Below, piece after piece: positions 4,076 through 19,429 of a stretch of DNA of 19,429 nt. The notes beneath the pieces were generated by a model. It had not been told where the DNA came from. It worked only from the letters and a program-made list of their open reading frames with translations, and did no database searches. How positions within the stretch are numbered: position 1 is the first letter of the stretch; the number at the start of each line of letters is the position of its first letter. The position numbers and the translations under genes were made by a program. Source of the DNA: Chloroflexota bacterium (GTDB taxonomy: Bacteria; Chloroflexota; UBA6077); assembly GCA_021806765.1 (NCBI GenBank), contig JAJZQR010000080.1, positions 1-19,429 of the forward strand, in the 5' to 3' direction.

Positions 4076-4138
4076 GTGCTTCAGGCCGCGCCGTGGTGCA
4101 AATGCGAGCGCAGGCCGGCATTTGCACGGGTGCTTCAG
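4076..4138. repeat. Nine-base direct repeats flanking a hairpin
   Basis: GTGCTTCAG occurs at 4076-4084 and again at 4130-4138, enclosing 45 bases that contain a perfect 10-base inverted repeat. The second copy includes the stop codon of the polymerase gene. The layout looks like a target-site duplication around a tiny palindromic insertion, but 45 bases is short and chance is possible. Confidence 0.4.
4096..4127 (-). other. Intergenic hairpin after the wzy-like gene
   Basis: GTGCAAATGC at 4096-4105 pairs perfectly with GCATTTGCAC at 4118-4127 around a 12-base GC-rich loop. It lies 8 bases past the wzy-like stop on the transcribed strand. No run of U follows on either strand, so it is not a classical intrinsic terminator. 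It could act as an mRNA stabiliser, a processing site or a transcription pause between the polymerase and the following glycosyltransferases. The inverted repeat is seen directly; the role is inference. Confidence 0.55.
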
Positions 4139-5541
4139 CTCACCTGTGTCGTGCTTTCCGGCAATCTCGCTTGAGAAGGTGAGCGCCGTGCCACTGGCCC
4201 GGAAGCCGACCAACCGTTCGCCGACCTCAACTGTTTCTTGAGGCGTTGGATAACAGTGGCAATCAGCAGCGTCCAGAGGATCGCCAGGGAGTTGCCTGCT
4301 TGGAGAAATGCGTTGGTTTGAACGGTCTGAAGGGCCGCCAGCAACGCTAGCGTACCGATGACCTGGCCGAGCAATCGAGTGCCTCGTAGCCTAATCGTTG
4401 CCACCTGGCAGAGGGCCATGAGTATTGCCATGTAGAAGGGCATGAAGCTGAAACCGAAGTCGCCAACCAGCAAAGGGATGAGGGTGGGTGGTGCGAAGGC
4501 GAGGATTCCGTATTCCTTTACGAGCATCGGTTTCAGCGAGGCAAGCTCGCTACTTCTCGATCCCTGCAGCAGGCCGATGCGCTCGAGCTGCAGAGTGGGC
4601 CACTCGAAAAGGTCCCTTCCCAGACCGAGAGGTACCTGCGAGGCAAGGGTGGTAGCGACTGGCTCTACGGCTGGAATAGACACCGCGAAGTAGCTGACGA
4701 ACTGGTCCACTGACCTCTCCACGAAGGTTTCCTCCTGGGCATCCGCTCTTGTCGTTGATCCATAGCGCCATTCCCCTATTGCAGCAAAGACGAGAACGGC
4801 GCACGAAATATAGAGGACGACTCGAGATACCAGGCGAATCAGTCTGCGCCTCGATGGGGTCAACTCGTAGAAGAGTAGAAATGACGCCCCATAAGGGAGG
4901 AGTATGCCCAGGAGAAAGCCGCGCCCCCCCATGGATAGACCGAACGGGGCAACAGCGATTGTGAGGAGAAGCAGTCTGCGAAAACGTACCCTGGAGGAGG
5001 CATCGCTCATTCCCAACATGATGGCGAGGACAGGCGACGCTGTAGTCAGATACGAGGCCACCCTACCAAAGGGTGTCAGTGAGTTGGTCAGATAGCTGAG
5101 GCGGATATCTAAGTATAGGGTTGGCAGATTCACCCCAACCATGAACAGGCGTTCGATCAGCTGGACAAGGCCAATCATGAACAGGAGGGCGATCGCATGC
5201 TTGAAGTGGCGGCGAAGCAGGACTTCCATAGCGATGAACCTCTGAGCCGCGCTGGCCGACCTAGGTATCCGTCCGCCCAGGAGGCTGCCAATCAAGAAAC
5301 CTATGAAGGCTCCCCAGTGGGCCTGGCGGATGAGTTCAAAGGTACCTTCGCTGGCGATAGGGACTCTCCCGAAGGACTGGGCTGTGACAGCCTGGGTCTC
5401 CGAATAGGCGTAACATGCCAGGACGAAAACCCACGCTCCCCAGTAGGCGAGGGAGGCCGAAACCCAGGCCCTGTTCAGCAGCCGCGTTATCGCGATGCTG
5501 CCGATACCCAACAGGATGGTAAGCAGAAGCGTTTCGTTCAT
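4135..5541 (-). CDS. wzy: Wzy-like O-antigen/capsule polymerase
   Basis: A 468-residue integral membrane protein with about a dozen hydrophobic segments from MNETLLLTILLGIGSI onward, a larger loop in the C-terminal half (about residues 260-370, containing ERSVDQFVSYFAVSIPAVEP and PLGLGRDLFEWPTLQ) and a polar tail rich in Ser, Arg and Gln. Length, topology and the arginine-bearing loop SMGGRGFLLG near 210 fit oligosaccharide repeat-unit polymerases, which link repeat units on the outer side of the inner membrane. Wzy proteins are poorly conserved, so the call also rests on context: a Wzx-type flippase and many glycosyltransferases are in the same run. I chose the ATG at 5541, which overlaps the preceding stop as ATGA; the open frame upstream (to 5616) has no hydrophobic character and lies inside the previous gene. 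A ligase or other polytopic protein is the main alternative. Confidence 0.8.
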   Translation of the reverse strand: MNETLLLTILLGIGSIAITRLLNRAWVSASLAYWGAWVFVLACYAYSETQAVTAQSFGRVPIASEGTFELIRQAHWGAFIGFLIGSLLGGRIPRSASAAQRFIAMEVLLRRHFKHAIALLFMIGLVQLIERLFMVGVNLPTLYLDIRLSYLTNSLTPFGRVASYLTTASPVLAIMLGMSDASSRVRFRRLLLLTIAVAPFGLSMGGRGFLLGILLPYGASFLLFYELTPSRRRLIRLVSRVVLYISCAVLVFAAIGEWRYGSTTRADAQEETFVERSVDQFVSYFAVSIPAVEPVATTLASQVPLGLGRDLFEWPTLQLERIGLLQGSRSSELASLKPMLVKEYGILAFAPPTLIPLLVGDFGFSFMPFYMAILMALCQVATIRLRGTRLLGQVIGTLALLAALQTVQTNAFLQAGNSLAILWTLLIATVIQRLKKQLRSANGWSASGPVARRSPSQARLPESTTQVS

Positions 5542-6512
5542 TCCCGTCGATCCAACAACCCCGCGTCGTCGATCAGGAAGGACCGCTCCGTTTTCAGCCG
5601 CGGATCGGCCAGGCACTCTACGCAGACCCCCGCATCCAAGCAGACAGTCTGAAGAGGCTCTAGCTGCGCAAGTATGTTGGCGGAGCCAATACCGCCGGCC
5701 ACCAGCACCAGATCTATCGGCGGTTCGAGGATGGCCAGGTCGACATTGTCGGTCATAGTTCTCGTTGGCGAAATGGGAAGAAACTGGACATCCAGCGCTC
5801 CCTCCGATCTCAGGCTGGCCTCTATCAGGGTGCGCTTATGGCGATCCGCGGAGGTGGCGACGGCAATCCGATGCCTTCCGTAGAGCGAGCGGCGTTGTGG
5901 CCCGTTCAGCAGAGCATACACGAAGTAGAACGAGGTGTAGTTCAGTTCGCCAAGTTCCATCCCATTCCTGTCCAGCCATTCGCAGACGAGGTCGATATAC
6001 TCTTCACTGAAGCGACCGGGCGAGCGCGTAAAGTGGATAGCCAGGATGCCTTTGTGGGCGATGTGCTGGAGATGCTGCACGTAAGCGCGCCGCATCGCGG
6101 GCAATTCGGCTGCGGTGTAACTCTCCCCCCACATGGTGGAGATGTCGGAAGCTCGGAATGGCTTGCACACACGGCGCGCAATTCCTGCCAGGCGTCGCCA
6201 CCAGGTTCGGGCCGACATCGAGCGGGCTTGGCGACCGATAGGGGCCCTACGGCCGACGGCAAACGCGAACTCCCCATCTGCCATACGATAGACTGGGAGA
6301 TACTTCTTTCCCATCGCCGACAGCACGCGTTCAGTGAACCTCTCGAACTGAAGTGCGGCGGGCTCCGGTCCAAGCATCAGCTGCATGATAGCAGCCTCTC
6401 GGGTCGCCATCTCGAAACCTGGCAGAAGAAGGTGTGTCTCATACAGCAGGCGGCGACGCAGTGCAAGCCTGCCGCGCTCTTCTGCCAGCTGATTTGCAGT
6501 CTCGTCTCTCAT
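5538..6512 (-). CDS. Putative GT-D fold (DUF1792-like) glycosyltransferase
   Basis: A soluble 324-residue protein that does not look like GT-A or GT-B enzymes. Residues 72-82 read LPVYRMADGEF, resembling the R-F-G-D-G-E motif in which the Asp-x-Glu (here D79 and E81) binds the donor in DUF1792 GT-D transferases. Later features fit too: STMWGESYTAAELPAMRRAY around residues 128-147, GILAIHF, and near the C-terminus VDLVLVAGGIGSANILAQLE followed by VCLDAGVCVECL, the position where this family has its G-rich strand and the D-x-G motif. The N-terminal 60 residues are charged and helical, without a match I recognise. ATGA overlaps on both sides lock it between a GT2 transferase and the polymerase, so its product is likely needed in step with them. 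The family call is by motif only. Confidence 0.65.
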   Translation of the reverse strand: MRDETANQLAEERGRLALRRRLLYETHLLLPGFEMATREAAIMQLMLGPEPAALQFERFTERVLSAMGKKYLPVYRMADGEFAFAVGRRAPIGRQARSMSARTWWRRLAGIARRVCKPFRASDISTMWGESYTAAELPAMRRAYVQHLQHIAHKGILAIHFTRSPGRFSEEYIDLVCEWLDRNGMELGELNYTSFYFVYALLNGPQRRSLYGRHRIAVATSADRHKRTLIEASLRSEGALDVQFLPISPTRTMTDNVDLAILEPPIDLVLVAGGIGSANILAQLEPLQTVCLDAGVCVECLADPRLKTERSFLIDDAGLLDRRE

Positions 6513-7589: not shown

Positions 7590-8792
7590 CTAGGACTGCA
7601 CGAAGAGTGACATCATCTGTCGTAGGCGGTGTTCCCAGGTGTGGTCTCCTAACGAACGAGCGAGCGCCGCCTCTCGCACGTGCTTTGCTTCGTCGGGATG
7701 CCGCAATACCCAATGAGCCAGATCGGCGCACTCTTCGGGCGAGCTGTAGCACAGTATCTCCTGCCCGATTCGGAAGTGATCGGCTAGTTCTGGATTGTAG
7801 GTAGTCAAGTACAAAGAGCCGCACATCGGTACTTCGAAGTCACGGCCTTTGAGGTGCTTCACTCCATCCATATGCCCTACACCGCCTACGCCGAGGACTA
7901 TGTGAGCTCGGCTGTACAAACCCACTGCTTGCTCGAAACTCAGGAATCCCTGCGGCCACCCGGCTCCATAGGTCTCGACATGAAAGCCGTGCTTGCGTAG
8001 GTAGTCCACTAGGTCGGTTCGAAACCCGTAGGCCTGGCCGATGAACAGGAGTTCTATATCTCGGTGCAGGTTCAAAGGATGGTGGAAAGTCGGGTCGGCC
8101 GCCTCAGGTGCATACCACCCGGTACCGCCAGCGTCGAGGACAATCTGGGCTCCGGTTCTCCACGTTGTCCAGTAGAGATCGCACTCCCGCGCCACCCTGA
8201 GTTGGTGTGACTCCTCCCGGCGGTGGACGCCGACGGGAAACTGCTGCTTGTCGTCTAGGCTCATGATGATGGTCCATATCCCTCGTCGGGCCAGCTCCTC
8301 CAGAAGCTCGCTGGATATGAACTCTCCTGAGGCGTAGAAGAAGGCAACAGTTACTGCTCGCTCCCGATCGACCGTATCGATCAAGGACAAGAAACTCTCG
8401 GCTAGTCTGTGGCGCATCTCATCGGTAGGGGGGCGGCTCAGGACCTCGGCTGAGAGCTCCATGCCGAACTCCAACAGGGCGAAGTGAGCAACACGCTCAA
8501 AGGACGGCCACAGTCCGTACTGTTCCCACACGCTGCTTCCAAAGGCAACCACCACTGGCTTGCCATCGGGACCGAAACACCGTCGGCGTTCGTGCTGTCT
8601 CTCCTGCAGCCGCTCCTTGATCAGGGCTTCGGAGTAAGGGCCTCCGCTCGTCCGTTCGTCTAGCCAGCTATGCAACAGTGCGTTGAACCGCCGCAACTGC
8701 TGGTGGCGCCGGTAGGCGCGCCACAATGCGTATGCTTTCGTTCCCGAAACCGAGGAACGCAACCTGCCCCGTGCAAGATTTCGTAAGTTCAT
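7590..8792 (-). CDS. CgeB-like glycosyltransferase
   Basis: A 400-residue protein whose C-terminal third matches the CgeB / glycosyl transferases group 1_2 pattern: IELLFIGQAYGFRTDLVDYL near residue 265, VETYGAGWPQGFLSFEQAVG, then KHLKGRDFEVPMCGSLYLTT and the final cap with SPEECADLAHWVLRHPDEAK. The N-terminal part (VVVAFGSSVWEQYGLWPSFE at 80-99, VTVAFFYASGEFISSELLEE and GIWTIIMSLDDKQQFP) looks like the companion DUF3880-type half. Such proteins are GT-B transferases found in spore-coat and surface-polysaccharide loci. The frame stays open to 9137, but that part lies inside the flippase gene and shows no fold; ATG 8792 overlaps the flippase stop as ATGA. Donor and acceptor are unknown. Confidence 0.85.
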   Translation of the reverse strand: MNLRNLARGRLRSSVSGTKAYALWRAYRRHQQLRRFNALLHSWLDERTSGGPYSEALIKERLQERQHERRRCFGPDGKPVVVAFGSSVWEQYGLWPSFERVAHFALLEFGMELSAEVLSRPPTDEMRHRLAESFLSLIDTVDRERAVTVAFFYASGEFISSELLEELARRGIWTIIMSLDDKQQFPVGVHRREESHQLRVARECDLYWTTWRTGAQIVLDAGGTGWYAPEAADPTFHHPLNLHRDIELLFIGQAYGFRTDLVDYLRKHGFHVETYGAGWPQGFLSFEQAVGLYSRAHIVLGVGGVGHMDGVKHLKGRDFEVPMCGSLYLTTYNPELADHFRIGQEILCYSSPEECADLAHWVLRHPDEAKHVREAALARSLGDHTWEHRLRQMMSLFVQS

Positions 8793-10309
8793 ATGCGTCC
8801 CGCGACAACGGTCTGAATGCGTCGAAGCACGAGCCTTGTTTCCCAGCGACAGGGTCGGGAAAGCAGCAGGAGCGTGGCCGTGTAGCAGCCTGCGAAACCG
8901 GCTACGTAAGAGCCGAACTCGATCCAGTTCGTTGCGTCCACCAGTGAGAACGCCAGCATGGGAGGAACCGCAGCGGCAAGGGCATACGCCGCTTCCCGCA
9001 CGGCTTCCCAACGATCCTGAGGAGACAGCTTCAACAGGGTGGAGAACGAAGATGGGAGATACCAGGTCGACACCGCAAGTACGGCCAGAAGAGGGGCAGC
9101 GGCTACCCCGAAAAGCCCTAGACTTCGGGCACCCCACATCATTAGCAGCACGCGGAGAAGACTTTCAATCGCGCTTGCGATACTGGTCCCCCTAATGTTG
9201 CCCAGCGCCACGCACAGGTTACGCAAGACGTAGGATGCCACCGTCACCGGAAACGCCAGGCAGATCGCCAGGTTGACTGGGTCGCCCGGGTACAGTCCGG
9301 CGCCGACCCACAGGCGGATGAAGTCCTGGTTGAAGGTGAGGAACCCTCCAAACATGATTCCCAGCAGCCAGGCTGTGATGCGCAGAAGCCGTAGCAGCGC
9401 GTCGCGCGCCTTGTCTAGTTCGCCGGCTCCAACTACGTGGGCGATGGCGGGCATGAAGGCGATGGCGGGCCGTGCGACGGCCCACTGGGCGATTTCCGGT
9501 GCCTTGCGCGCCAGGACCAGGGGGGGGGTACTCTCGGGCCCCAGGAGACGGGCGACTACGAAGGCCTCGGCGTTGCTGGCAACCGTGGTTGCTGCCGAGG
9601 AGAGGGATGTGAAGGACAGCAGGCCCAGCAGGCCGGGCAGTTCGCGCAGAGACGCCGAGAGTCTCAGCCTGCTGCGGTGCATCCTCCACACGAGGTACCC
9701 AAGGTTCCCAGCGGCAAGCCCCATCCCTCGTACCAAAACGCCGGCCGGGATCGCTAACACCCCGTGGCCAGCGAACAGCAGCAGGATGGTCAGGGCGATG
9801 CTACCGGCAGTGACAGTCACGTAGACCAGCCCGATCCCTAGACTGCCCTGAAGGCCCTGGTTGATGGCGGTCACGGGGTAGGAGAAGATCATGGCTATCG
9901 TCCCCAGGACCGCCAGCCAGAAAGCCTTCTGTATAGCGGCCTGGTCTGCTGGCGCTTCCAGGTTTACCCAGTTCCCGACCTGATTGGTTGCTGCAAGACC
10001 CGCAAGTAGCACGACCAGAGCGATCAGTACGGCAAGGACGAGACCATTGGAGAGGAGCACCTGAATCTCTCTGGTGTCATTCCTGCCGAAGGCCGCACCT
10101 ACTCTTTGCTGTAGAACGGTAGACAGTCCTGGATCGACGGCTGTGATCCAGGCCAGCACGTTGCCCGTCGCCAGCCACGCGCCGTACAGGTTGAGCGGGA
10201 TGTACTTGAGATAGAGCGGAACCAGCACGACCCCGGACACCGTCGCCAGGGCGATGGCGGCGTAGTGGAAGAATAGATTCCATTGCGTTGTCCGTCGTCT
10301 GCTTCTCAT
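8789..10309 (-). CDS. wzx: Wzx-type polysaccharide flippase
   Basis: A 506-residue polytopic protein of the MOP/polysaccharide-transporter superfamily, expected to flip undecaprenyl-linked repeat units across the inner membrane. About 12-14 hydrophobic helices are visible, starting with the N-terminal pair NLFFHYAAIALATVSGVVLV and LYGAWLATGNVLAWITAVDP; the sequence VDPGLSTVLQQRVGAAFGRN at about 57-76 is the typical first cytosolic loop after helix 2. The C-terminal half repeats the pattern with an additional helix pair. The ATG at 10309 follows TAAGG about ten bases upstream. The gap before it (10310-10421) contains no clear promoter or terminator. A run of nine C on the coding strand (9520-9528) encodes Pro-Pro in the segment STPPLVLARK. 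A close relative exporter (e.g. teichuronic type) is possible but the Wzx role fits the polymerase nearby. Confidence 0.88.
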   Translation of the reverse strand: MRSRRRTTQWNLFFHYAAIALATVSGVVLVPLYLKYIPLNLYGAWLATGNVLAWITAVDPGLSTVLQQRVGAAFGRNDTREIQVLLSNGLVLAVLIALVVLLAGLAATNQVGNWVNLEAPADQAAIQKAFWLAVLGTIAMIFSYPVTAINQGLQGSLGIGLVYVTVTAGSIALTILLLFAGHGVLAIPAGVLVRGMGLAAGNLGYLVWRMHRSRLRLSASLRELPGLLGLLSFTSLSSAATTVASNAEAFVVARLLGPESTPPLVLARKAPEIAQWAVARPAIAFMPAIAHVVGAGELDKARDALLRLLRITAWLLGIMFGGFLTFNQDFIRLWVGAGLYPGDPVNLAICLAFPVTVASYVLRNLCVALGNIRGTSIASAIESLLRVLLMMWGARSLGLFGVAAAPLLAVLAVSTWYLPSSFSTLLKLSPQDRWEAVREAAYALAAAVPPMLAFSLVDATNWIEFGSYVAGFAGCYTATLLLLSRPCRWETRLVLRRIQTVVAGRI

Positions 10310-10421
10310 ACCCGTACAACCTTACTCCGGGATGACACCGCTGCTCGGAAGCCAGAAATAGGAGATAGGTGATCGACGCAAGGATCCCCGAGGCAGGATC
10401 GGACCATGCTGACCGGAGCCA

Positions 10422-11483
10422 CTATATTGGACGGTCGCGTCGCTGACGCTTGATATAGGAGCGCAGCCTACCGGCAAGATTCGTCTTCAGCAGCAGGACG
10501 TGGATCAGACTTCTAGGTTTCGCGACCAGCCATGGCCAGTGGGAGCGCAGTTCCCTCACTGCCTGGCGATACTTGGCAGGCTGCTCCGTGACGAGTTCAC
10601 CGACAGCCGTAGCCCAGAGGAAGCTGACATAGGTATAGTAACTTTCCCGCCGCGCGCTAGCCGCGCGGTTCGGTAGGTTGCGGACGGCGTAGGGATGTGT
10701 GAATATCTCCCACCATTTCGCCCAAGTAATGGGATCAAACCGAATGCGACGGTAGTCATCGTCACAGGTGGCCAAGTGTTCGGACAGGACGCACAGGATA
10801 GGTTGAGCAGAACGCTGGAAGACAGAGTAGCATAGCGCGATGAACCAGTAGCCGAACCCCATGAACGGCTCCAGGTGCCGGTGATCGCTGACGCTTAAGG
10901 GAACGTGCTTCAGCACGTAGATGCTAAGTTTTGGATAGGTGGCAGAGAGTTCGATCAACTGAGTAGGATCCGTTACGATCCTCACGCGCTCCGAGAAGTT
11001 GAATGTCTTGGACTGAGAGCCCGGCGGTTGCTGCAAGTTAAACAACAGCAGGTCGGGAGTCGTCGAGGTCAGCGCGTCGTGCACAGAACCGATGGCTCCC
11101 GGCAGCAGGAGATCGTCGTCGGAGAAGAACCAAACGTACTCACTCGTGGCGGTCTCGTAGAGAAAGCGCATGTTGCCATCAAGCCCTAGGTTCTGAGGTT
11201 GATGGAAGGAGAGCAACTTGTAGTTGTGGGGACGGTACGACAACAACACCTCACGAGTAGCGTCGGTGGAGGCGTTGTTGCTCACGGTGACGTCAATTTG
11301 CCCTTTGAGACCCGATCTCGCGATCTCCTCATCGAGGTTGCGAAGCAACCTCAGAAGCTTAGGGGCTCTATTATGAGTGGGAATCAGGAAACTCAGGGTG
11401 TTCTGGTGAGCCAAAGGCGATACATCCCTCTGCTGGCTGGAGACGGATTCGGGGACCATTGCGCGCGGGTCATCGAAAGGCAT
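10422..11483 (-). CDS. Family 2 glycosyltransferase
   Basis: A GT-A fold enzyme of about 353 residues. TLSFLIPTHNRAPKLLRLLR near the N-terminus, VTVSNNASTDATREVLLSY and PQNLGLDGNMRFLYETATSE are standard GT2 elements; VWFFSDDDLLLPGAIGSVHD carries the acidic metal-binding cluster at about 122-124. The C-terminal region beyond 200 is rich in aromatic residues and has no motif I can name. Start choice: ATG codons exist at 11489, 11483 and 11459. I prefer 11483 because GGGA sits seven bases ahead of it; 11489 has that sequence too close. It overlaps the methyltransferase gene by 14 bases, so the two are likely coupled. Which sugar it transfers is unknown; proximity to tyv and the methyltransferase makes the dideoxyhexose a candidate donor, as inference only. 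Confidence 0.9.
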   Translation of the reverse strand: MPFDDPRAMVPESVSSQQRDVSPLAHQNTLSFLIPTHNRAPKLLRLLRNLDEEIARSGLKGQIDVTVSNNASTDATREVLLSYRPHNYKLLSFHQPQNLGLDGNMRFLYETATSEYVWFFSDDDLLLPGAIGSVHDALTSTTPDLLLFNLQQPPGSQSKTFNFSERVRIVTDPTQLIELSATYPKLSIYVLKHVPLSVSDHRHLEPFMGFGYWFIALCYSVFQRSAQPILCVLSEHLATCDDDYRRIRFDPITWAKWWEIFTHPYAVRNLPNRAASARRESYYTYVSFLWATAVGELVTEQPAKYRQAVRELRSHWPWLVAKPRSLIHVLLLKTNLAGRLRSYIKRQRRDRPI

Positions 11484-12405
11484 ATGCATGTCCCGAGGGC
11501 AGGAGTTCGATGGGAAGCTCCTGGAGCTGGTGAGATGGGAGTGAACAAGCTATCCGGTTGTTCTCGTCCCTAACATACGCGAGCAGCACATGATCAGCTC
11601 CCCAGAAGGACTGCTGGGTAACGGACTCTTGGGAAAGCAATGGGCTCTCCGTGAGCGCCCAGGTGGAGATGAACGCATCACAAGAAAGGTCGATACAACC
11701 ACAGAGGGCAACGGCTGATGGCACCAGGTTGACTCTGCCAGGAGCGAGCCCCTCCCCTGTACGCACGATATGCACCGAGTGCTCACCCTCCACGCTAAAC
11801 AGATAGATGTATTGAAGTGCGAGCATCTCTGGCAGATCAACAATGCAGTATGTGACTTGCTCTCGCATCCTCCTGATCAGCCGAGCCATGTCTCCGTATC
11901 CCCCTCCCCACTCAACGATCCTCGCGGCGTCCCAAATCCGCTTTCCGGACGCCGAAGCGTATTTGGCGAGATGGTATGCGTGGTGGGCTCGATTGGCAGA
12001 GGTCAACCACTTGGTGTCTGTAACGTTTGGAAGCCCGACGTAGTCTTCACGAAGCAACAGTCGGGCGATCTCAGGGCCAAACACGCCCTCGACATAGTCA
12101 GCGCGGAGGCGCGCCGCACGTCCGCCCCTCCGCCTCCCAAACACCATCGTGCTCGCGATGAGTGGATGGGAGAGAAACCCAATTGGGACTCCCTGTTGGA
12201 AAGCCGCGCTGATGTCCTTTGCCCATCTACCCCAATCGTAGGTGGAAGAGGTAGACGGCAAGGCTGCCGGGCTGTTCCGATGAAGGTCGGCACATATGTC
12301 GTGGTAACGTCGACTGATAGCATCGAACCTCTCGGTTTGAGCTATCACCTTTAGACGCTGGCGAAAGAGGAGTTGGAGCATACTCTCGCTTACTAACGCT
12401 ATCAT
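11470..12405 (-). CDS. Putative sugar O-methyltransferase
   Basis: A 311-residue SAM-dependent methyltransferase. The SAM-binding motif I is ARIVEWGGGYGDMARLIRRM (161-180) and the acidic residue after strand two is in TYCIVDLPEMLALQYIYLFS (D190). The long N-terminal helical part and the mid-domain FGPEIARLLLREDYVGLPNV (109-128) resemble the putative sugar O-methyltransferase family found in polysaccharide clusters. The C-terminal segment CDAFISTWALTESPLLSQES fits the rest of that fold. It would methylate a hydroxyl of a nucleotide sugar or of the lipid-linked oligosaccharide. The start ATG 12405 is the first in frame; ATG 12381 is an alternative and neither has well-spaced Shine-Dalgarno sequence. 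It follows tyv after a 108-base gap in which I see no promoter or terminator. Confidence 0.82.
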   Translation of the reverse strand: MIALVSESMLQLLFRQRLKVIAQTERFDAISRRYHDICADLHRNSPAALPSTSSTYDWGRWAKDISAAFQQGVPIGFLSHPLIASTMVFGRRRGGRAARLRADYVEGVFGPEIARLLLREDYVGLPNVTDTKWLTSANRAHHAYHLAKYASASGKRIWDAARIVEWGGGYGDMARLIRRMREQVTYCIVDLPEMLALQYIYLFSVEGEHSVHIVRTGEGLAPGRVNLVPSAVALCGCIDLSCDAFISTWALTESPLLSQESVTQQSFWGADHVLLAYVRDENNRIACSLPSHQLQELPIELLPSGHAYAFR

Positions 12406-12513
12406 TCCTCACCATCGGGCACTGCTGCTGGTCGTGATGGCTTTGGGCACGTACAACGGCCATTTCCCCAGACAGAGGGCTCAACAGCTCAACCGCTGTG
12501 AAAGTGGCGCAGA

Positions 12514-13545
12514 CTAGCTAAGCCAGTCCAGCATTGACCTGATTCCATCGCGGGCGCTTATCATCGGCTCCCACCCAAGCTCGGAGGCTAGGTTTCCGAT
12601 GTTGGCTACAAATATCTTCTGATCGCTCTGCCGCCGGGGAAGTTGTGTGTACTTCAACTGAACGTCCAGCATCTCTGCGAGCACAGCGAACAGTTCCAAC
12701 AGCGAAAGACTATTCCGGGCACCGCCACCCACGTTGAACGCACGTCCACCCACTAAATGTATCTGGGCAGCAGCGCTACCATACAATCGCACGATGTCTT
12801 CTGAGTTAAGAACGTCGCGAACCTGCTTCCCGCTCCCCGAGATGGTGAAGGCGGGACTGGGCAGGCCAGACTCTTGTGCTCGCTTGGTCTCGAGGGCTTT
12901 CAGACAGAACCATCCGATCCAACCCTGGTCATAGGTGGCAAACTGCCGTCCACCGTACATGGAGGAGTGGCGGAAAACCACCGTTCTCAGGCCGAAGATG
13001 CGGGCGTAGTCCAGCATGTACTGGTCTGCGGCCCCCTTCGAGCATCCGTAGGGAGAGTGAAAGCTAAGAGGAATCGACTCGTCGAATCCGTCCGGGTAGT
13101 CGGGCGCCACGTATCGGGTGGGATGCTCCTCATAGCGCACCCACTCCAGGTCACCGTACACCTTGTTGGTCGAAGAGTAGAGCACGACTGTAGCCGGGGA
13201 GCGTAAGCGCACCGCCTCAAGAACGTTTAGAGTCCCGAGCGCGTTGACCTCGAAGTCCAGGCGGGGGTCGGCGACACTGGCGGTCATAGCTACCTGACCA
13301 GCCAAGTGTGCCAAAGCGTCAGGTCTGGTTTCCTGAACCAGGCGTTCAACTGCATCCCTGTCTCGAACGTCGCCGTTCACGAACCGCCAGCCTTTTCCAT
13401 GGCGAGAATGCAACCAGGCTAGGTTCGCTTGGGATCCCGTCCTGCTCAAGTTGTCAAGAACGACAACCTCCTCGCCTTTCCCGAGGATGGCGTCGGCTAA
13501 GTTCGTCCCCACGAATCCGCAACCGCCCGTAATCAACCAGGTCAC
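12514..13545 (-). CDS. rfbE: CDP-paratose 2-epimerase (CDP-tyvelose synthesis)
   Basis: Catalyses the NAD-dependent C2 epimerisation of CDP-paratose to CDP-tyvelose, the last step of the tyvelose route. The 343 residues match the Salmonella Typhi RfbE/Tyv type closely from memory: [15 protein letters not shown] (4-18, NAD site), [11 protein letters not shown] near 81-91, [13 protein letters not shown] (123-135), [20 protein letters not shown] (162-181, with catalytic Y166 and K170) and [20 protein letters not shown] (191-210). Length equals the family's usual length. The start is GTG 13545, overlapping the rfbH stop as GTGA, with GGAG seven bases ahead at 13553-13556. Known homologues are few outside enteric dideoxyhexose clusters; other CDP-sugar epimerases are less likely given these motifs. 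Confidence 0.93.
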
Positions 13546-14882
13546 GACTCAACTCCACTGCGAACTTTAGTCCGCTCGTTGACGAATGTTGTGATGCTAT
13601 CGACGACGTATGACAGCATCGACTCGCTTAGCCCAGGATACACTCCCAACCAGAAGGCATTGTTCATCACGAAGTCAGTGTTGTTCAAAGTGCCGACCAC
13701 ACGATACGGAACGCCCTGGTAAGCTGCCTGTCGTGTGAGGTTTCCGCCAAAGAGCAGGCGCGTTCCGATCTTGCGGCTTTCGAGGAAGCGTACCAGTTCG
13801 CCGCGCGTGAAGGGAGCCTCGGTGCGTACCGCGACTAGGAAGCCAAACCAGCTAGGGTCGCTTCCGGGAGTGGCTCGAGGCAGGACCAGTAACTCCTCCA
13901 GCGGCCTCAGCCCATCATGAATAAACTGCCAATTGCGTCTTCGTGCCTCTATGAAGCTAGGCAGCTTTTTCAACTGGGCTACGCCCACCGATGCCTGCAT
14001 GTCTGTCAGTTTGAGGTTGTAGCCTATGTGGGAATAGGTGTACTTGTGATCATATCCGTAAGGGAGATCACCGATCTTCCAGTCAAAGCGCTTGCCGCAA
14101 GTGTTGTCCTTACCTGGCTCGCACCAGCAGTCCCGTCCCCAATCACGGAAGGACTCTACCAGGGTCTTGAGACGTGCATGGTGGGTTAGCACGCAGCCAC
14201 CTTCTCCGGTCGTGATGTGGTGAGCTAGGTCGCAACTCACAGTCGCCAGATCGCCGAAGGTGCCAGTATTTCGGCCCTGGTAAACACTCCCGAGCGCGTC
14301 GCAATTGTCCTCGATTAGCCACAGGTCATGACGCTTGGCTACTCTCAAGACAGTCTCTACTTCAAAAGGGTTGCCGAGTGTATGGGCGAGCATGATCGCC
14401 CGTGTCTGGGGGGCAATGGCATCATCCAGGTATCTGACATCAACATTGTAGGTGGCCGGCTCAACGTCCAGGAATACTGGCACGAGACCGTTCTGTACTA
14501 TCGGGTTGACGCTGGTTGGGAATCCGGCTGCGATGGTGATCACCTCATCACCAGGCTTCAAGCGTCGCTCCCCAAGTCTTGGCGAGGTGAGCGCTGCCAG
14601 CGCCAGCAGGTTAGCCGACGAGCCCGAGTTGCACAGTATGGCGTGTCGCGTTCCCACGAAAGTTGCCAGCTCCTGCTCAAACTGCGCCGCAAATCGGCCC
14701 GTAGTGAGCCAGAAGTCCAGGGAAGCGTCAACCAGGTATTTGATGTCCTCGGCGTCAAACACCCTGCCGGCGACTGGTACGGGCGTTTCGCCCGGGACGA
14801 ATTCGCGCACCGCGAAGGCTTCGGCATGGTAGGCCGAAACCATTGTCAGAATGGCCTCTCGCAGTTCCTTAGCTTGCATCAT
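13542..14882 (-). CDS. rfbH: CDP-6-deoxy-D-xylo-4-hexulose 3-dehydrase (E1)
   Basis: PLP and [2Fe-2S] enzyme that removes the C3 hydroxyl of CDP-4-keto-6-deoxyglucose together with an E3-type reductase, committing the sugar to the 3,6-dideoxy series. The 446 residues show the aminotransferase-like fold ([20 protein letters not shown] at 84-103; [18 protein letters not shown] at 187-204). Where ordinary aminotransferases have the PLP lysine, residues 220-224 read AHHIT, with H221 in that place, as in RfbH/AscC. The iron-sulfur ligands fit the reported C-X57-C-X1-C-X7-C pattern exactly: C194, C252, C254 and C262. The start ATG 14882 (a second ATG at 14879) has GGAAGG eight bases ahead and overlaps the preceding gene by 14 bases. 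Confidence 0.95.
13553..13556 (-). promoter_or_regulatory. Ribosome binding site for the GTG start of rfbE
   Basis: GGAG seven bases before GTG 13545-13543, lying inside the end of rfbH. It supports the GTGA overlap as the true start of the epimerase. Confidence 0.65.
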
Positions 14883-15813
14883 GACTCGGACCTTCCACTT
14901 GATCGCGGAACCAGTTCACCGTCTCCATCAACCCAACTCGCAACGACCAGACCGGCTGCCAGGCGAGCAGTTCTTGAGTGGGTTGCGGTGCCGCTACTTG
15001 AGGTTGCTCTCCAATCCGGTCCGGCACTGCGCCGAACTCGGGGCGGACTCGACTACCCGTGAGTTCAACCAGGGTCTCCACCACATCACGGATCGAGGTG
15101 CCTACCCCCGTACCCAATTCGATTGCTTTTCCCTCGATGCTGGGCTGGATGCCCGCTCTTAGTAACCCTCGTACCACGTCCCCTACGTACACGAAGTCGC
15201 AGATGCGCGATCCGCTTGTCAAGCGTGGTGGCTTGTCCTGAAGTAGCCTGGAGATCGTGTGAGGGATCAACTTCGTGGAGCCCTGCCGCGGACCGTAGGT
15301 CATGAAAGGGCGAACCATTACCGACGGTATACCGTACACGTGCTGAAACATGTCGGTGTACAAGCTAGCCGCTAGCTTTGCAGCAGCGTATGGCGAGTTT
15401 GGTGAGCCGCCCACCAGTTCCTCAGACGATCCCAACACGACGGTACGATCGCAGGGCGACTCGGTGACAGCCAGCAGCAAGTGGACAGAACCCACCAGGT
15501 TGGCTTGGAGAGTTGGTAGGACCAGAGCCAGTTCCTGTCCGGCGGCCACCCGGCCAGCTAGGTGATACACCAGTTGGGGAGTGACCCGGGCGACGGTCGC
15601 TCGGACGGCTTCTGCGTCCGCCAAGTCGACTGCCCACCCCGTGTACCCGTATGTGAACGGCACTGTTTCGGCTGAACGACAGACGCCGTGAACCTCTGCA
15701 CCCAGCGCTACTAGCGCTTCACATAGATGTCTGCCGATGAAGCCGGTGGATCCAGTCACTAACACTCTACGTCGGGCAAATGCGTCTCCGAACTCATCCT
15801 GCCAAGAATTCAC
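14869..15813 (-). CDS. SDR reductase, candidate CDP-paratose synthase
   Basis: A 314-residue extended SDR enzyme. The NAD(P) motif [20 protein letters not shown] spans 15-34, [12 protein letters not shown] is near 82, GSSEELVG begins at 127 and the catalytic pair is [13 protein letters not shown] with Y141 and K145. The C-terminal half, [20 protein letters not shown], then [20 protein letters not shown] and [13 protein letters not shown], follows the layout of paratose/abequose synthases (RfbS/RfbJ). In the pathway it would reduce C4 of the CDP-3,6-dideoxy-4-keto sugar to CDP-paratose, the substrate of the next-but-one gene. Two starts are possible: TTG 15855 or GTG 15813; I prefer GTG 15813 because GAGTGG lies close before it and the fold begins there. 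The annotated start overlaps rfbG by 20 bases. Another 4-reductase or epimerase is the alternative. Confidence 0.78.
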
Positions 15814-16795
15814 GGTACCACTCGATCGTCTCGCGCAAGCCGCGCTCGAGGCCAAATTCGGGCCGCCAAGCCAGCACGGTGCGGGCCTTCTTTGCGGAGA
15901 GATACTGCGACCGGATTTCTCCGTGAGCGCGGTCCAGTATCTGGGTTTCGATATGTTGGGTGTCCATCAGCCTCTGGATGGTTTGTACCAACTCTAGCAC
16001 GGTGATAGGAGACTCTGTGCTGAAGTTGAAAGCTTGACCCTGAACCGACGTTTCACCAAGACACTCAGCCAATCGCAGGTAAGCCTGTGCTACATCCCGC
16101 ACATAAATATAGTCTCTCACATAAGTGCCGTCGCTACGGATAAGGGGCCGCTCGCCCTTGAGGTACGACCGAATGGTGGTCGGCACGATCCGGCTCCAAT
16201 TCAGATCTCCTCCCCCGTACACGTTTCCGCAGCGGGCGATGGCTACTGGCAGAGCGTAAGCGTGGTAGTAGGCCTGAGCCAGCAGGTCAGCGCAACTCTT
16301 CGACACCTCGTAGGGATATCGGCCATTCAGGGGCATGTCCTCGGTGTAAGGGAGTGTAGATGTCTCACCGTAGGCTTTGTCGCTTGATGCAATGACTACC
16401 TGTCGAACCAAGTCTCCGTGCAGCCGGCAGGCCTCCAGCAGGTTATAGGTTCCACGAATATTGGCCTCGAAAGTGGGCAGCGGAAATCGATTTGCAGTTC
16501 CGACAATAGTCTGCGCTCCTAGGTGGAATACCGTGTCTGCCTCACTCTCATTGATGGCGCGCTCCAGTGTCCAGAGGTCTTCCAAGGTACCATTGACCAC
16601 GGAGACTCTTGCTATGTCACCACTACGGAAGAGTTCTGATTCCGGGTCTGCATCCCGAACGAGAACCAAAACACGGGCACCTAGACCCAACAACTCCTTC
16701 ACAACCCAGGAGCCAACAATCCCTGTAGCCCCAGTGACGAAGACTCTGCGCCCCTGCCACCAATCCTGGCTTCTCGATCCGCGGCGTGCAGTCAT
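15794..16795 (-). CDS. rfbG: CDP-glucose 4,6-dehydratase
   Basis: Converts CDP-glucose to CDP-4-keto-6-deoxyglucose with bound NAD. The 333 residues contain [20 protein letters not shown] (16-35), [14 protein letters not shown] (90-103), [12 protein letters not shown] (135-146) with the S-S-D-K form of the dehydratase active site, and [13 protein letters not shown] (160-172) with Y162 and K166. [20 protein letters not shown] and [14 protein letters not shown] follow, as in the RfbG subgroup. It is somewhat shorter than the roughly 360 residues of the enteric enzyme. The open frame continues to 16876, but I chose ATG 16795, which overlaps the rfbF stop as ATGA; upstream codons add an unconserved tail inside rfbF. 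Position right after rfbF supports CDP-glucose rather than dTDP- or GDP-linked substrate. Confidence 0.88.
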
Positions 16796-17565
16796 TCTGC
16801 AGAAACCCTCCAAGGCGCACTGTCCCGCTGCCACAGGCTTTCCAGGAGCCGCACGTCGCGCAGGGTGTCCATGCACTGCCAGAACCCAGTGTGCCTGTAC
16901 GCGACCAATTGACCGCTCTCGGCTAATCGTTCCAGCGGTTCCCGCTCAAACACTGTCTTGTCTCCGTCTAAGTAGTCCAAGACACCCGGCTCCATGACAA
17001 AAAAGCCACCGTTGATCCAGCCCTCTCCGATCTGTGGTTTCTCAGTAAACTGCTGCACTAGATCTCCGTCGAAGCTCAGCCCGCCAAACCTAGCTGGTGG
17101 GCGGACGGCGGTGACTGTTGCTAGCTTCCCATGGGCACGATGAAACGCGACCAAGTCTCGGATGTTAACGCTAGCCACTCCGTCGCCATAGGTCATCATG
17201 AATGTCTCGCTGTGGACCCAAGGGGCCAGGCGCTTGATACGTCCACCTGTATCGGTTTGAAGACCCGTGTCAATAAGGTGAACCATCCAGTCCTCGCGCT
17301 CGCCGTCGTGCACTTCTGTCTGCCCACTATCCAAATGGATGCTAAAGCTGTTCCGAAGCGCGTAGTAGTTCAGGAAGTAGCTCTTAATGACCTCACCCTT
17401 GTATCCCAGCGCCACGACGAACTCTTTGTATCCATAGGCTGCATAGATGCCCATAATGTGCCATAAGATTGGGCGCCCGCCAATCTCAACCATGGGCTTA
17501 GGCTTCAGCGTTGTCTCTTCCTGCAGGCGGGTGCCAAGTCCCCCTGCAAGAATAATCACTCTCAT
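16792..17565 (-). CDS. rfbF: Glucose-1-phosphate cytidylyltransferase
   Basis: Makes CDP-glucose and pyrophosphate from CTP and glucose-1-phosphate, the entry step of all CDP-3,6-dideoxyhexoses. The 257 residues carry the nucleotidyltransferase signature [18 protein letters not shown] (1-18), the [18 protein letters not shown] stretch (21-38), [20 protein letters not shown] (49-68), [12 protein letters not shown] (123-134, metal-binding aspartate D128), [11 protein letters not shown] and [12 protein letters not shown] near the C-terminus. Length and motifs equal those of known RfbF proteins. The ATG at 17565 follows GGGGTGAG and lies 12 bases after the fucose-synthase stop. Confidence 0.96.
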
Positions 17566-17577
17566 GGACTCACCCCA

Positions 17578-18648
<1,071 letters not shown>

Positions 18649-18659
18649 CTAGCTTGCCC

Positions 18660-19429
18660 TTAGCCGATTGCCGGCCACCTGAACCATCCGGCTAGGGATA
18701 GTAGGGAGGCCGTGTCGAAGAAGCCGAGCATGCCCACAACTGTGACGAAGGCCAGACCATTTCGCTGGCCACGGGGCAACATGCTACATCCCTCTGCGAG
18801 CAACAACGCCAGCGGCACGAGGGCCACGAACAGGAACCTTCCCTGCAGAACCTGCAGCCGGTATGCGAAGGAGTCGTCCTGGTAGGCGGCCAGGTAGCGC
18901 AGGTACGCCGTCGCGACGGTGGCAGCTATCGCCGCCACCAGTGCAACGCGGATGGGCAGCGGGCGTAACGATGTGGGATGTCCGCTCCCGAGCAGCCGAG
19001 TGACAAACGATACGTAGCCGGCGACTGCGAGCAGCACGATCGCGGTTGGTGCCGCGTACCACATCAGATCGGGATGCACCGACTCTCCCAGGAAGGCCGA
19101 CCAGAAGCTGGTGAACAGGTAGGGCAACGGTGCCGTACCAGTGAGCGCAATCATCTCTTGCCCCTTCGACCAGTCCCACACCATCGAGAGGGACCAGGAT
19201 GCCACCGCTCTCATGTAGCCGCCCTCGGGTGTTCTCAGGGTCGCGACGCCCAGCACGGCCGCCAGCGCAACCACCGGGAGCAGCCACTTCAATCGGCCGG
19301 TCCTGAACTCCCGGAACAGCACGAGCGCCGCTACTCCCGTGCACACTGCCACCACCGGCAATATCTGTCCCTTGGTTATCAGCGCAGCTGCCATGGCTAC
19401 CGCAGTGGCTGGGATCGCCCAACGGGGGA
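18660..19429 (-). CDS. Polytopic membrane protein, N-terminus cut by window edge
   Basis: The reading frame is open to the right edge of the window, so only the last 256 or so residues are seen. They hold several hydrophobic helices (ILPVVAVCTGVAALVLFREF, WLLPVVALAAVLGVATL, AIVLLAVAGYVSFVTRLL, RVALVAAIAATVATAYL, GRFLFVALVPLALLLAEG, LAFVTVVGMLGFFDTASL). The phrases YLFTSFWSAFLGE and LQVLQGRFLFVALVPLALLL resemble the C-terminal part of large membrane glycosyltransferase-like proteins (DUF2142 or GT39-type). These act on lipid-linked sugars at the outer face of the membrane. The assignment is tentative. It sits 47 bases before the fucose-synthase start (29 if that starts at 18630), so cotranscription is likely. 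Confidence 0.6.
   Translation of the reverse strand, partial: PRWAIPATAVAMAAALITKGQILPVVAVCTGVAALVLFREFRTGRLKWLLPVVALAAVLGVATLRTPEGGYMRAVASWSLSMVWDWSKGQEMIALTGTAPLPYLFTSFWSAFLGESVHPDLMWYAAPTAIVLLAVAGYVSFVTRLLGSGHPTSLRPLPIRVALVAAIAATVATAYLRYLAAYQDDSFAYRLQVLQGRFLFVALVPLALLLAEGCSMLPRGQRNGLAFVTVVGMLGFFDTASLLSLAGWFRWPAIG

Follow-up and report, generated by a model that had tools for sequence, protein, structure and literature searches.

The closest described relatives of the system presented here come from several settings. In Salmonella enterica group D, the O-antigen genes are ddhDABC-prt-tyv (PMC3715488). The 3-dehydrase of RfbH type, also called E1, takes its electrons from an E3 reductase, and the roles of its characteristic histidine and four cysteines have been described; SpnQ of Saccharopolyspora, likewise a 3-dehydrase that uses pyridoxamine 5'-phosphate (PMP) and a [2Fe-2S] cluster, is served by a reductase paired with ferredoxin or flavodoxin (PMC8987622). 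Characterised CDP-tyvelose 2-epimerases (TyvE) include those of Thermodesulfatator, Methanocaldococcus and Persephonella (PMC13098431); that of Thermodesulfatator has been purified, and TaTyvE of Thermodesulfatator atlanticus was assayed mainly on CDP-glucose and its analogues (PMC7851689). A CDP-paratose gene set outside the enterics, RfbF/G/H/S, has been predicted in a flagellar glycosylation island of Clostridium butyricum (PMC13317340). Here we analyse five adjacent genes, rfbF, rfbG, a reductase gene (S), rfbH and rfbE, on the contig JAJZQR010000080.1, whose whole length of 19,429 nucleotides is called the window below. They are best explained, with a probability that we put at roughly two in three, as an operon for CDP-tyvelose in which the reductase belongs to a second lineage (window type) and the electron donor of RfbH is not a dedicated one. 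Throughout the text, the Salmonella genes named above are taken by us to be equivalent to rfbI-F-G-H-S-E.

The five open reading frames (ORFs) run on the minus strand from 17565 to 12514 in the order F-G-S-H-E (Table 1), as a preliminary description of this DNA had proposed, and all four junctions are overlaps: F overlaps G in an ATGA and H overlaps E in a GTGA, while the two inner junctions, G/S and S/H, measure 20 nt and 14 nt, the starts of G and S having been picked from the overlaps and from homologues. Read as one translationally coupled operon, RfbF would make CDP-glucose, which the divergent RfbG would convert to CDP-4-keto-6-deoxyglucose; RfbH, with PMP and [2Fe-2S], would remove the C3 hydroxyl, the window-type S would reduce the C4 ketone to give CDP-paratose, and RfbE would invert C2 to yield CDP-tyvelose. 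By analogy with SpnQ, the electrons for RfbH would come from a general donor, ferredoxin or flavodoxin with a reductase, and not from a dedicated E3, and the neighbouring transferases and flippase would assemble and export a surface glycan.

As judged from family or structure scores and active-site residues, the identities of RfbF, RfbH and RfbE are secure. RfbF and RfbH score well above the cut-offs of their family models (Table 1), and the two best matches of RfbE in the PDB are both CDP-tyvelose 2-epimerases, with the third match at 123 bits; among the 25 NCBIfam models listed for RfbE, none lies above its cut-off. Of 18 positions with substrate, cofactor or catalytic roles, taken from PMC7851689 and PMC13098431, RfbE is identical to the Salmonella enzyme StTyvE (1orr) at 18, with the catalytic triad, the TNK and VAM segments and the CDP-pocket residues all present. 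TaTyvE (9rl0), its best PDB match, agrees at 17 of these 18 sites and differs at site 230, where the window RfbE and StTyvE have Ser and TaTyvE has His. With site 230 set aside, 80 of 81 RfbE rows, the window included, match TaTyvE at the remaining 17 sites, and the lone exception (locus L046) has Ser for Thr at 124; locus counts here and below rest on 80 loci kept from a scan with an RfbE alignment. RfbE is predicted on these grounds to be a C2 epimerase acting on CDP-paratose. RfbH retains C193, H220, C251, C253 and C261, that is, the His in place of Lys and the four-cysteine [2Fe-2S] site, in common with the Yersinia pseudotuberculosis E1 (3bcx), and the same residues are found in 60/60 rows kept at a minimum of 300 bits and more than 85% coverage. 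This filter dropped, among others, L012, L039 and L068 (partial or split) and L034, L056 and L062 (homologues 31–33% identical). For the cysteines that bind the cluster we presume this numbering to apply.

The reductase S, a short-chain dehydrogenase/reductase (SDR), matches generic Pfam SDR families alone and no NCBIfam model above its cut-off. Its active-site stretch reads GSSEE...SPYAAAK, as against the NTDT...YxLSK-like motif of the reductases usual in this slot. GSSEE also occurs in RMD (2pk3), the GDP-4-keto-6-deoxymannose reductase, which is a C4 ketoreductase with a GSSEE...SPYxxxK stretch but is only about 24% identical to S and acts on another nucleotide sugar; its tree position beside S is weak (88/75), and a sister relationship of the two is not claimed. 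The window type stands beside E in 5/80 loci, all from Chloroflexota (L001, L003, L026, L030, L037), and L002, L004 and L005, also from Chloroflexota, carry a reductase of the usual kind in the slot. In a sample of the phylum it was found in 8/301 genomes, with a high score in the centre genome alone, which had been chosen for having one, and 208–240 bits in the seven others; in a sample of the class the count was 3/396, two of them known from the RfbE scan and one new (G403), at most 5–7 candidates being scored per genome in these two samples, and in a sample of the order it was 1/20, again the centre genome. The window-type reductase looks rare. The slot beside RfbE is also taken by other SDRs, in L072 (Muribaculaceae; GSSEE-YG) and in L048 (a gammaproteobacterial metagenome-assembled genome, MAG; GTSYE-YG).

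The dehydratase G carries an SDK...YxxxK motif (SDK...YEVSK), which Table 1 of PMC8987622 assigns to CDP-glucose 4,6-dehydratases. In the tree, the window-type G proteins form a clade (93/85) that is sister to the classical RfbG with 1wvg (support of the join, 100/99), and homologues at 45–60% identity are found in 7/80 loci, six of the seven from Chloroflexota. The best reading of G is that of a divergent sister of classical RfbG, an RfbG-like CDP-glucose 4,6-dehydratase.

Several observations weigh against CDP-tyvelose as the product. S falls outside the reductase clade usual for its slot, with both clades supported at 100/100, and its AlphaFold model (mean predicted local distance difference test score, pLDDT, 86.1) finds extended SDRs of several functions, fold matches that do not separate a reductase from an epimerase. 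G reaches 210.5 bits against the CDP-glucose dehydratase model TIGR02622, below the cut-off of 278.45, and its motif, in the form [ST]DK...YxxxK, is shared by inverting UDP-GlcNAc dehydratases (PMC8987622). The names first given to the two proteins hold in part: S is an SDR with the catalytic motif in the position of an "RfbS-like" reductase but not a member of the clade usual there, and the rfbG assignment stands by motif and sister clade but not by the score of its model. The reductase trees were built from 64 rows, the window included, drawn from SDR ORFs that either immediately precede E or stand between G and H; the set contains no authenticated RfbS sequence, has no row for some loci and takes in a few other kinds of SDR (L047, L048, L067, L072). 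A wholly separate origin of S is not claimed, as an approximately unbiased (AU) test did not reject a branch that has the window type and the usual reductases on the same side (p 0.274) and a denser tree unites both in one region (86, not starred).

The function of S can be approached through fusions to RfbH. In L021 (Planctomycetota), where the gene order is F-G-[S-H]-E, one ORF of 898 amino acids joins a window-type S (38.6% identity) to an RfbH (63%). When this fusion was used in a database search, 25 of the 120 matches listed, out of 5553, carried SDR and RfbH domains, with the SDR first in 22 and last in 3 according to the hit coordinates. The SDR part scored higher with the window type than with the usual reductases in 20 of the 25, lower in 4 and with neither in 1. 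Seventeen of these SDR domains were placed in a tree: four group with the window type (100, starred), seven form a starred clade adjoining it (join 83, not starred), two group with the usual reductases (97, starred), two stand apart and two are long branches. Since more than one reductase branch is fused to RfbH, the fusions argue that S acts on the product of RfbH. For the more specific assignment of S as a putative reductase of CDP-4-keto-3,6-dideoxyglucose to CDP-paratose, the SDR motif and the fusions are supportive only.

The position of S outside the usual clade also favours an unlikely but not negligible alternative, in which the operon makes another CDP-sugar, with S using another keto-sugar or giving the opposite configuration at C4, and RfbE using its product. 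A window-type S stands beside F and G without H or E in L092, and TaTyvE turns over CDP-glucose and CDP-6-deoxyglucose (PMC7851689); the S frame of L092 is, however, interrupted, the many proteins in which relatives of S are fused to RfbH tie it to the 3-dehydrase, and RfbE equals StTyvE at all sites compared, so that CDP-tyvelose is preferred as the product.

Other variants of RfbH were also recorded. In L052 (5490–8153, an Elusimicrobia MAG), RfbH has an intein-like insert at the position of E1 Cys193, with PF14890 at 34.4 bits, just under the cut-off, and in P0273, P0298, P0299, P0337, P0345 and P0359, six proteins among the 120 matches listed of 5553, an intein-like insert lies near Cys251 (precomputed PF14890). 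In either position, the insert is apparently followed by one of the [2Fe-2S] cysteines. In addition, precomputed Pfam matches show RfbH fused to family 2 glycosyltransferases in P0295 and P0332, and to a thiamine-diphosphate enzyme in P0281 (PF02776/PF00205/PF02775), a partner that we presume to be perhaps YerE-like.

The preliminary description had the five genes supply every CDP-linked step; F, G, S, H and E are indeed present, but an E3 of the RfbI, AscD or DdhD kind for RfbH is not encoded in the window, where no ORF shows the E3-type cysteine pattern, and in this the window differs from Yersinia pseudotuberculosis, whose E1 has a dedicated E3 partner. In 10 loci this pattern occurs in the ORF directly upstream of F, with the E3 architecture confirmed by Pfam in 3/3 examples scanned; it also matched five unrelated ORFs in other loci. 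Two types of E3 query were used, the common one with the ferredoxin domain first and another with this domain last. Searches with the common type covered 65 of the 80 loci and gave full-length matches (at least 200 bits) in 13/65 genomes with RfbE loci (8/40 and 5/25); they missed L074 and L077, which are E3-like with the ferredoxin domain last, and the second query found both of these controls. The latter query gave no match in the genome of L021. In 0/9 related Chloroflexota genomes, mostly MAGs of unstated completeness, was there a full-length match to either type, and under a looser limit three of the nine show partial matches. It is suggestive only that no E3 is encoded in these Chloroflexota, because most of the genomes are MAGs of unstated completeness.

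These results could also mean that the cluster is incomplete in its host, and that RfbH, lacking E3, has a low turnover or an altered action, leaving little or no 3,6-dideoxyhexose. The missing E3-type ORF of the window and the lack of full-length matches to the two E3 types in all nine Chloroflexota genomes searched speak for this, but we consider it improbable: the cluster cysteines are kept in all filtered RfbH rows, many hosts of RfbE seem to manage without a common-type E3, MAG gaps allowed for, and SpnQ runs on general ferredoxin or flavodoxin systems, albeit with a dTDP-sugar substrate and in an antibiotic pathway (PMC8987622). A functional CDP-tyvelose operon served by a general electron donor is preferred, and the analogy with SpnQ suggests what this donor may be.

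Phylogenies of RfbE and RfbH, proposed in the preliminary description, both place the window with Chloroflexota and not with the enterics, and agree with its remark that the cluster does not look enterobacterial. In the RfbE tree, the window shares a clade (99, starred) with nine rows from Chloroflexota and one from Planctomycetota, away from StTyvE; for Chloroflexota RfbE the tree requires two changes, since L021 (Planctomycetota) is nested inside, and a single Chloroflexota clade is not rejected (p 0.44). In the RfbH tree, from which L052 was left out for its intein-like insert and for which L021 was trimmed to the final 440 residues, the clade of the window (98, starred) contains 5/6 other Chloroflexota rows and a single additional row, and does not include the Yersinia E1. 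A recent transfer of an enteric rfb block, suggested by a gene set equal to that of Salmonella group D apart from rfbI/ddhD, is disfavoured by both trees and by the placing of G and S in other clades, and we regard it as very improbable.

The locus L092, from G403, whose class also contains the Anaerolineales MAG of L030, has in common with the window a GDP-L-fucose synthase-like gene (FCL), F, G, S, the flippase, a transferase and one further gene, at 41–71% identity. At 8771–10420 of this locus, H and E are absent, S has an in-frame stop and a second fragment resembling the end of G lies downstream, followed by other genes, which looks like the exchange of a sugar module. On the RfbE and RfbH trees and this synteny, the operon is placed probably in Chloroflexota, Anaerolineae. 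Chloroflexota have been reported to be without lipopolysaccharide (LPS) and BAM genes (PMC5826079; PMC13319060); provided that the host is correctly assigned, this makes an O antigen unlikely, and the glycan of the cluster is probably of another kind.

A setting outside the enterics, singled out as unusual in the first description, is ordinary at the gene level: the RfbE-alignment scan returned at least 575 confirmed RfbE-encoding stretches, and characterised TyvE enzymes from outside the enterics are reported in PMC13098431. The 80 loci span Chloroflexota, Pseudomonadota, Bacteroidota, Campylobacterota, Bacillota, Cyanobacteriota, candidate phyla and one archaeal MAG. The gene order is not unique either, with F-G-S-H-E in 10/80 loci and F-G-H-S-E in 34/80. 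The Clostridium butyricum island, itself a prediction, has four components named and no 2-epimerase, and the word tyvelose occurs 0 times in the available text (PMC13317340). With Salmonella group D, the window shares the F, G, H, reductase and E steps and a location among the flippase and transferase genes of a glycan cluster; it differs in the lack of ddhD (E3), in S before H, in the other clades of S and G and in a Chloroflexota-like host. In L018 and L019, from MAGs of the KatS3mg series labelled Sericytochromatia and Leptospiraceae, the clusters are near-identical and RfbE is identical, a likeness that would point either to mis-binning or to a transfer in the very recent past.

The novelty lies in three features that occur together: the dehydratase is divergent, the reductase is of a second branch that fusions tie to RfbH, and a dedicated E3 is not apparent. 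Among the open-licence papers listed in literature searches, none describes RfbH fusions or tyvelose in Chloroflexota in its title or in the opening of its abstract. Taken jointly, and held only tentatively, the findings would describe a second, phylogenetically separate C4 reductase branch, fused to RfbH, that completes CDP-paratose synthesis in Chloroflexota and Planctomycetota, with RfbH on a general donor and the 3,6-dideoxyhexose on a non-LPS glycan of a monoderm phylum.

The operon lies in a larger glycan cluster (Table 1). The FCL gene ends 12 nt before the start of rfbF, and both L001 and L092 have a homologue, 71–73% identical to it, as the gene immediately preceding F. Downstream of the operon, a flippase is found as described at first, although only marginally MatE-like; L092 and L001 each carry a homologue of this flippase at 51% identity. 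The glycosyltransferase that follows it has a 60% identical homologue in L092; further transferases lie downstream of the flippase-like gene in the same cluster. The cluster ORFs 4135–5616, 5538–6512 and 18660–19394 have no Pfam match, and 5538–6512 has a 41% identical homologue in the syntenic L092. A repeat search of 12000–18700 gave one inverted repeat, within the FCL gene.

Table 1. Genes of the proposed CDP-tyvelose operon and its neighbours in the window.
Feature	Position	Strand	Evidence and remarks
GDP-L-fucose synthase-like SDR (FCL)	17578..18630	-	NF047922 285 bits, below cut-off 500
RfbF/DdhA, glucose-1-phosphate cytidylyltransferase	16792..17565	-	TIGR02623 383.4 bits (cut-off 300.25); PDB 1tzf 311 bits
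RfbG-like CDP-glucose 4,6-dehydratase, divergent clade	15794..16795	-	likely start ATG 16795 (ATGA overlap with rfbF); longer ORF from GTG 16876
S, SDR in the CDP-paratose synthase slot, window-type reductase	14869..15813	-	likely start GTG 15813; longer ORF from 15855
RfbH/E1, CDP-4-keto-6-deoxyglucose 3-dehydrase (PMP, [2Fe-2S])	13542..14882	-	NF011936 712.5 bits (cut-off 423); 3bcx 565.6 bits
RfbE/TyvE, CDP-paratose (CDP-tyvelose) 2-epimerase	12514..13545	-	9rl0 490 bits, 1orr 438 bits
Putative sugar O-methyltransferase, NanM-like (weak)	11470..12405	-	TIGR04371 36.6 bits, below cut-off 44; no Pfam
Family 2 glycosyltransferase	10422..11489	-	PF00535 62.3 bits
Polysaccharide flippase-like membrane protein, MatE marginal	8789..10309	-	PF01554 24.7 bits, cut-off 24.9
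Glycosyltransferase (Glyco_trans_1_2)	7590..9137	-	PF13524 91.8 bits

A survey of glycan pathways (PMC7725333) names Salmonella and Yersinia as the primary sources of tyvelose, paratose and abequose. The genes found here suggest a far wider spread of these sugars, and surveys keyed on RfbS- or RfbI-like genes could miss clusters of this kind. Two questions become testable with purified enzymes: which reductant serves RfbH in organisms that have no E3 gene, and whether, in the SDR-RfbH fusions, deoxygenation and ketone reduction are carried out by one polypeptide.

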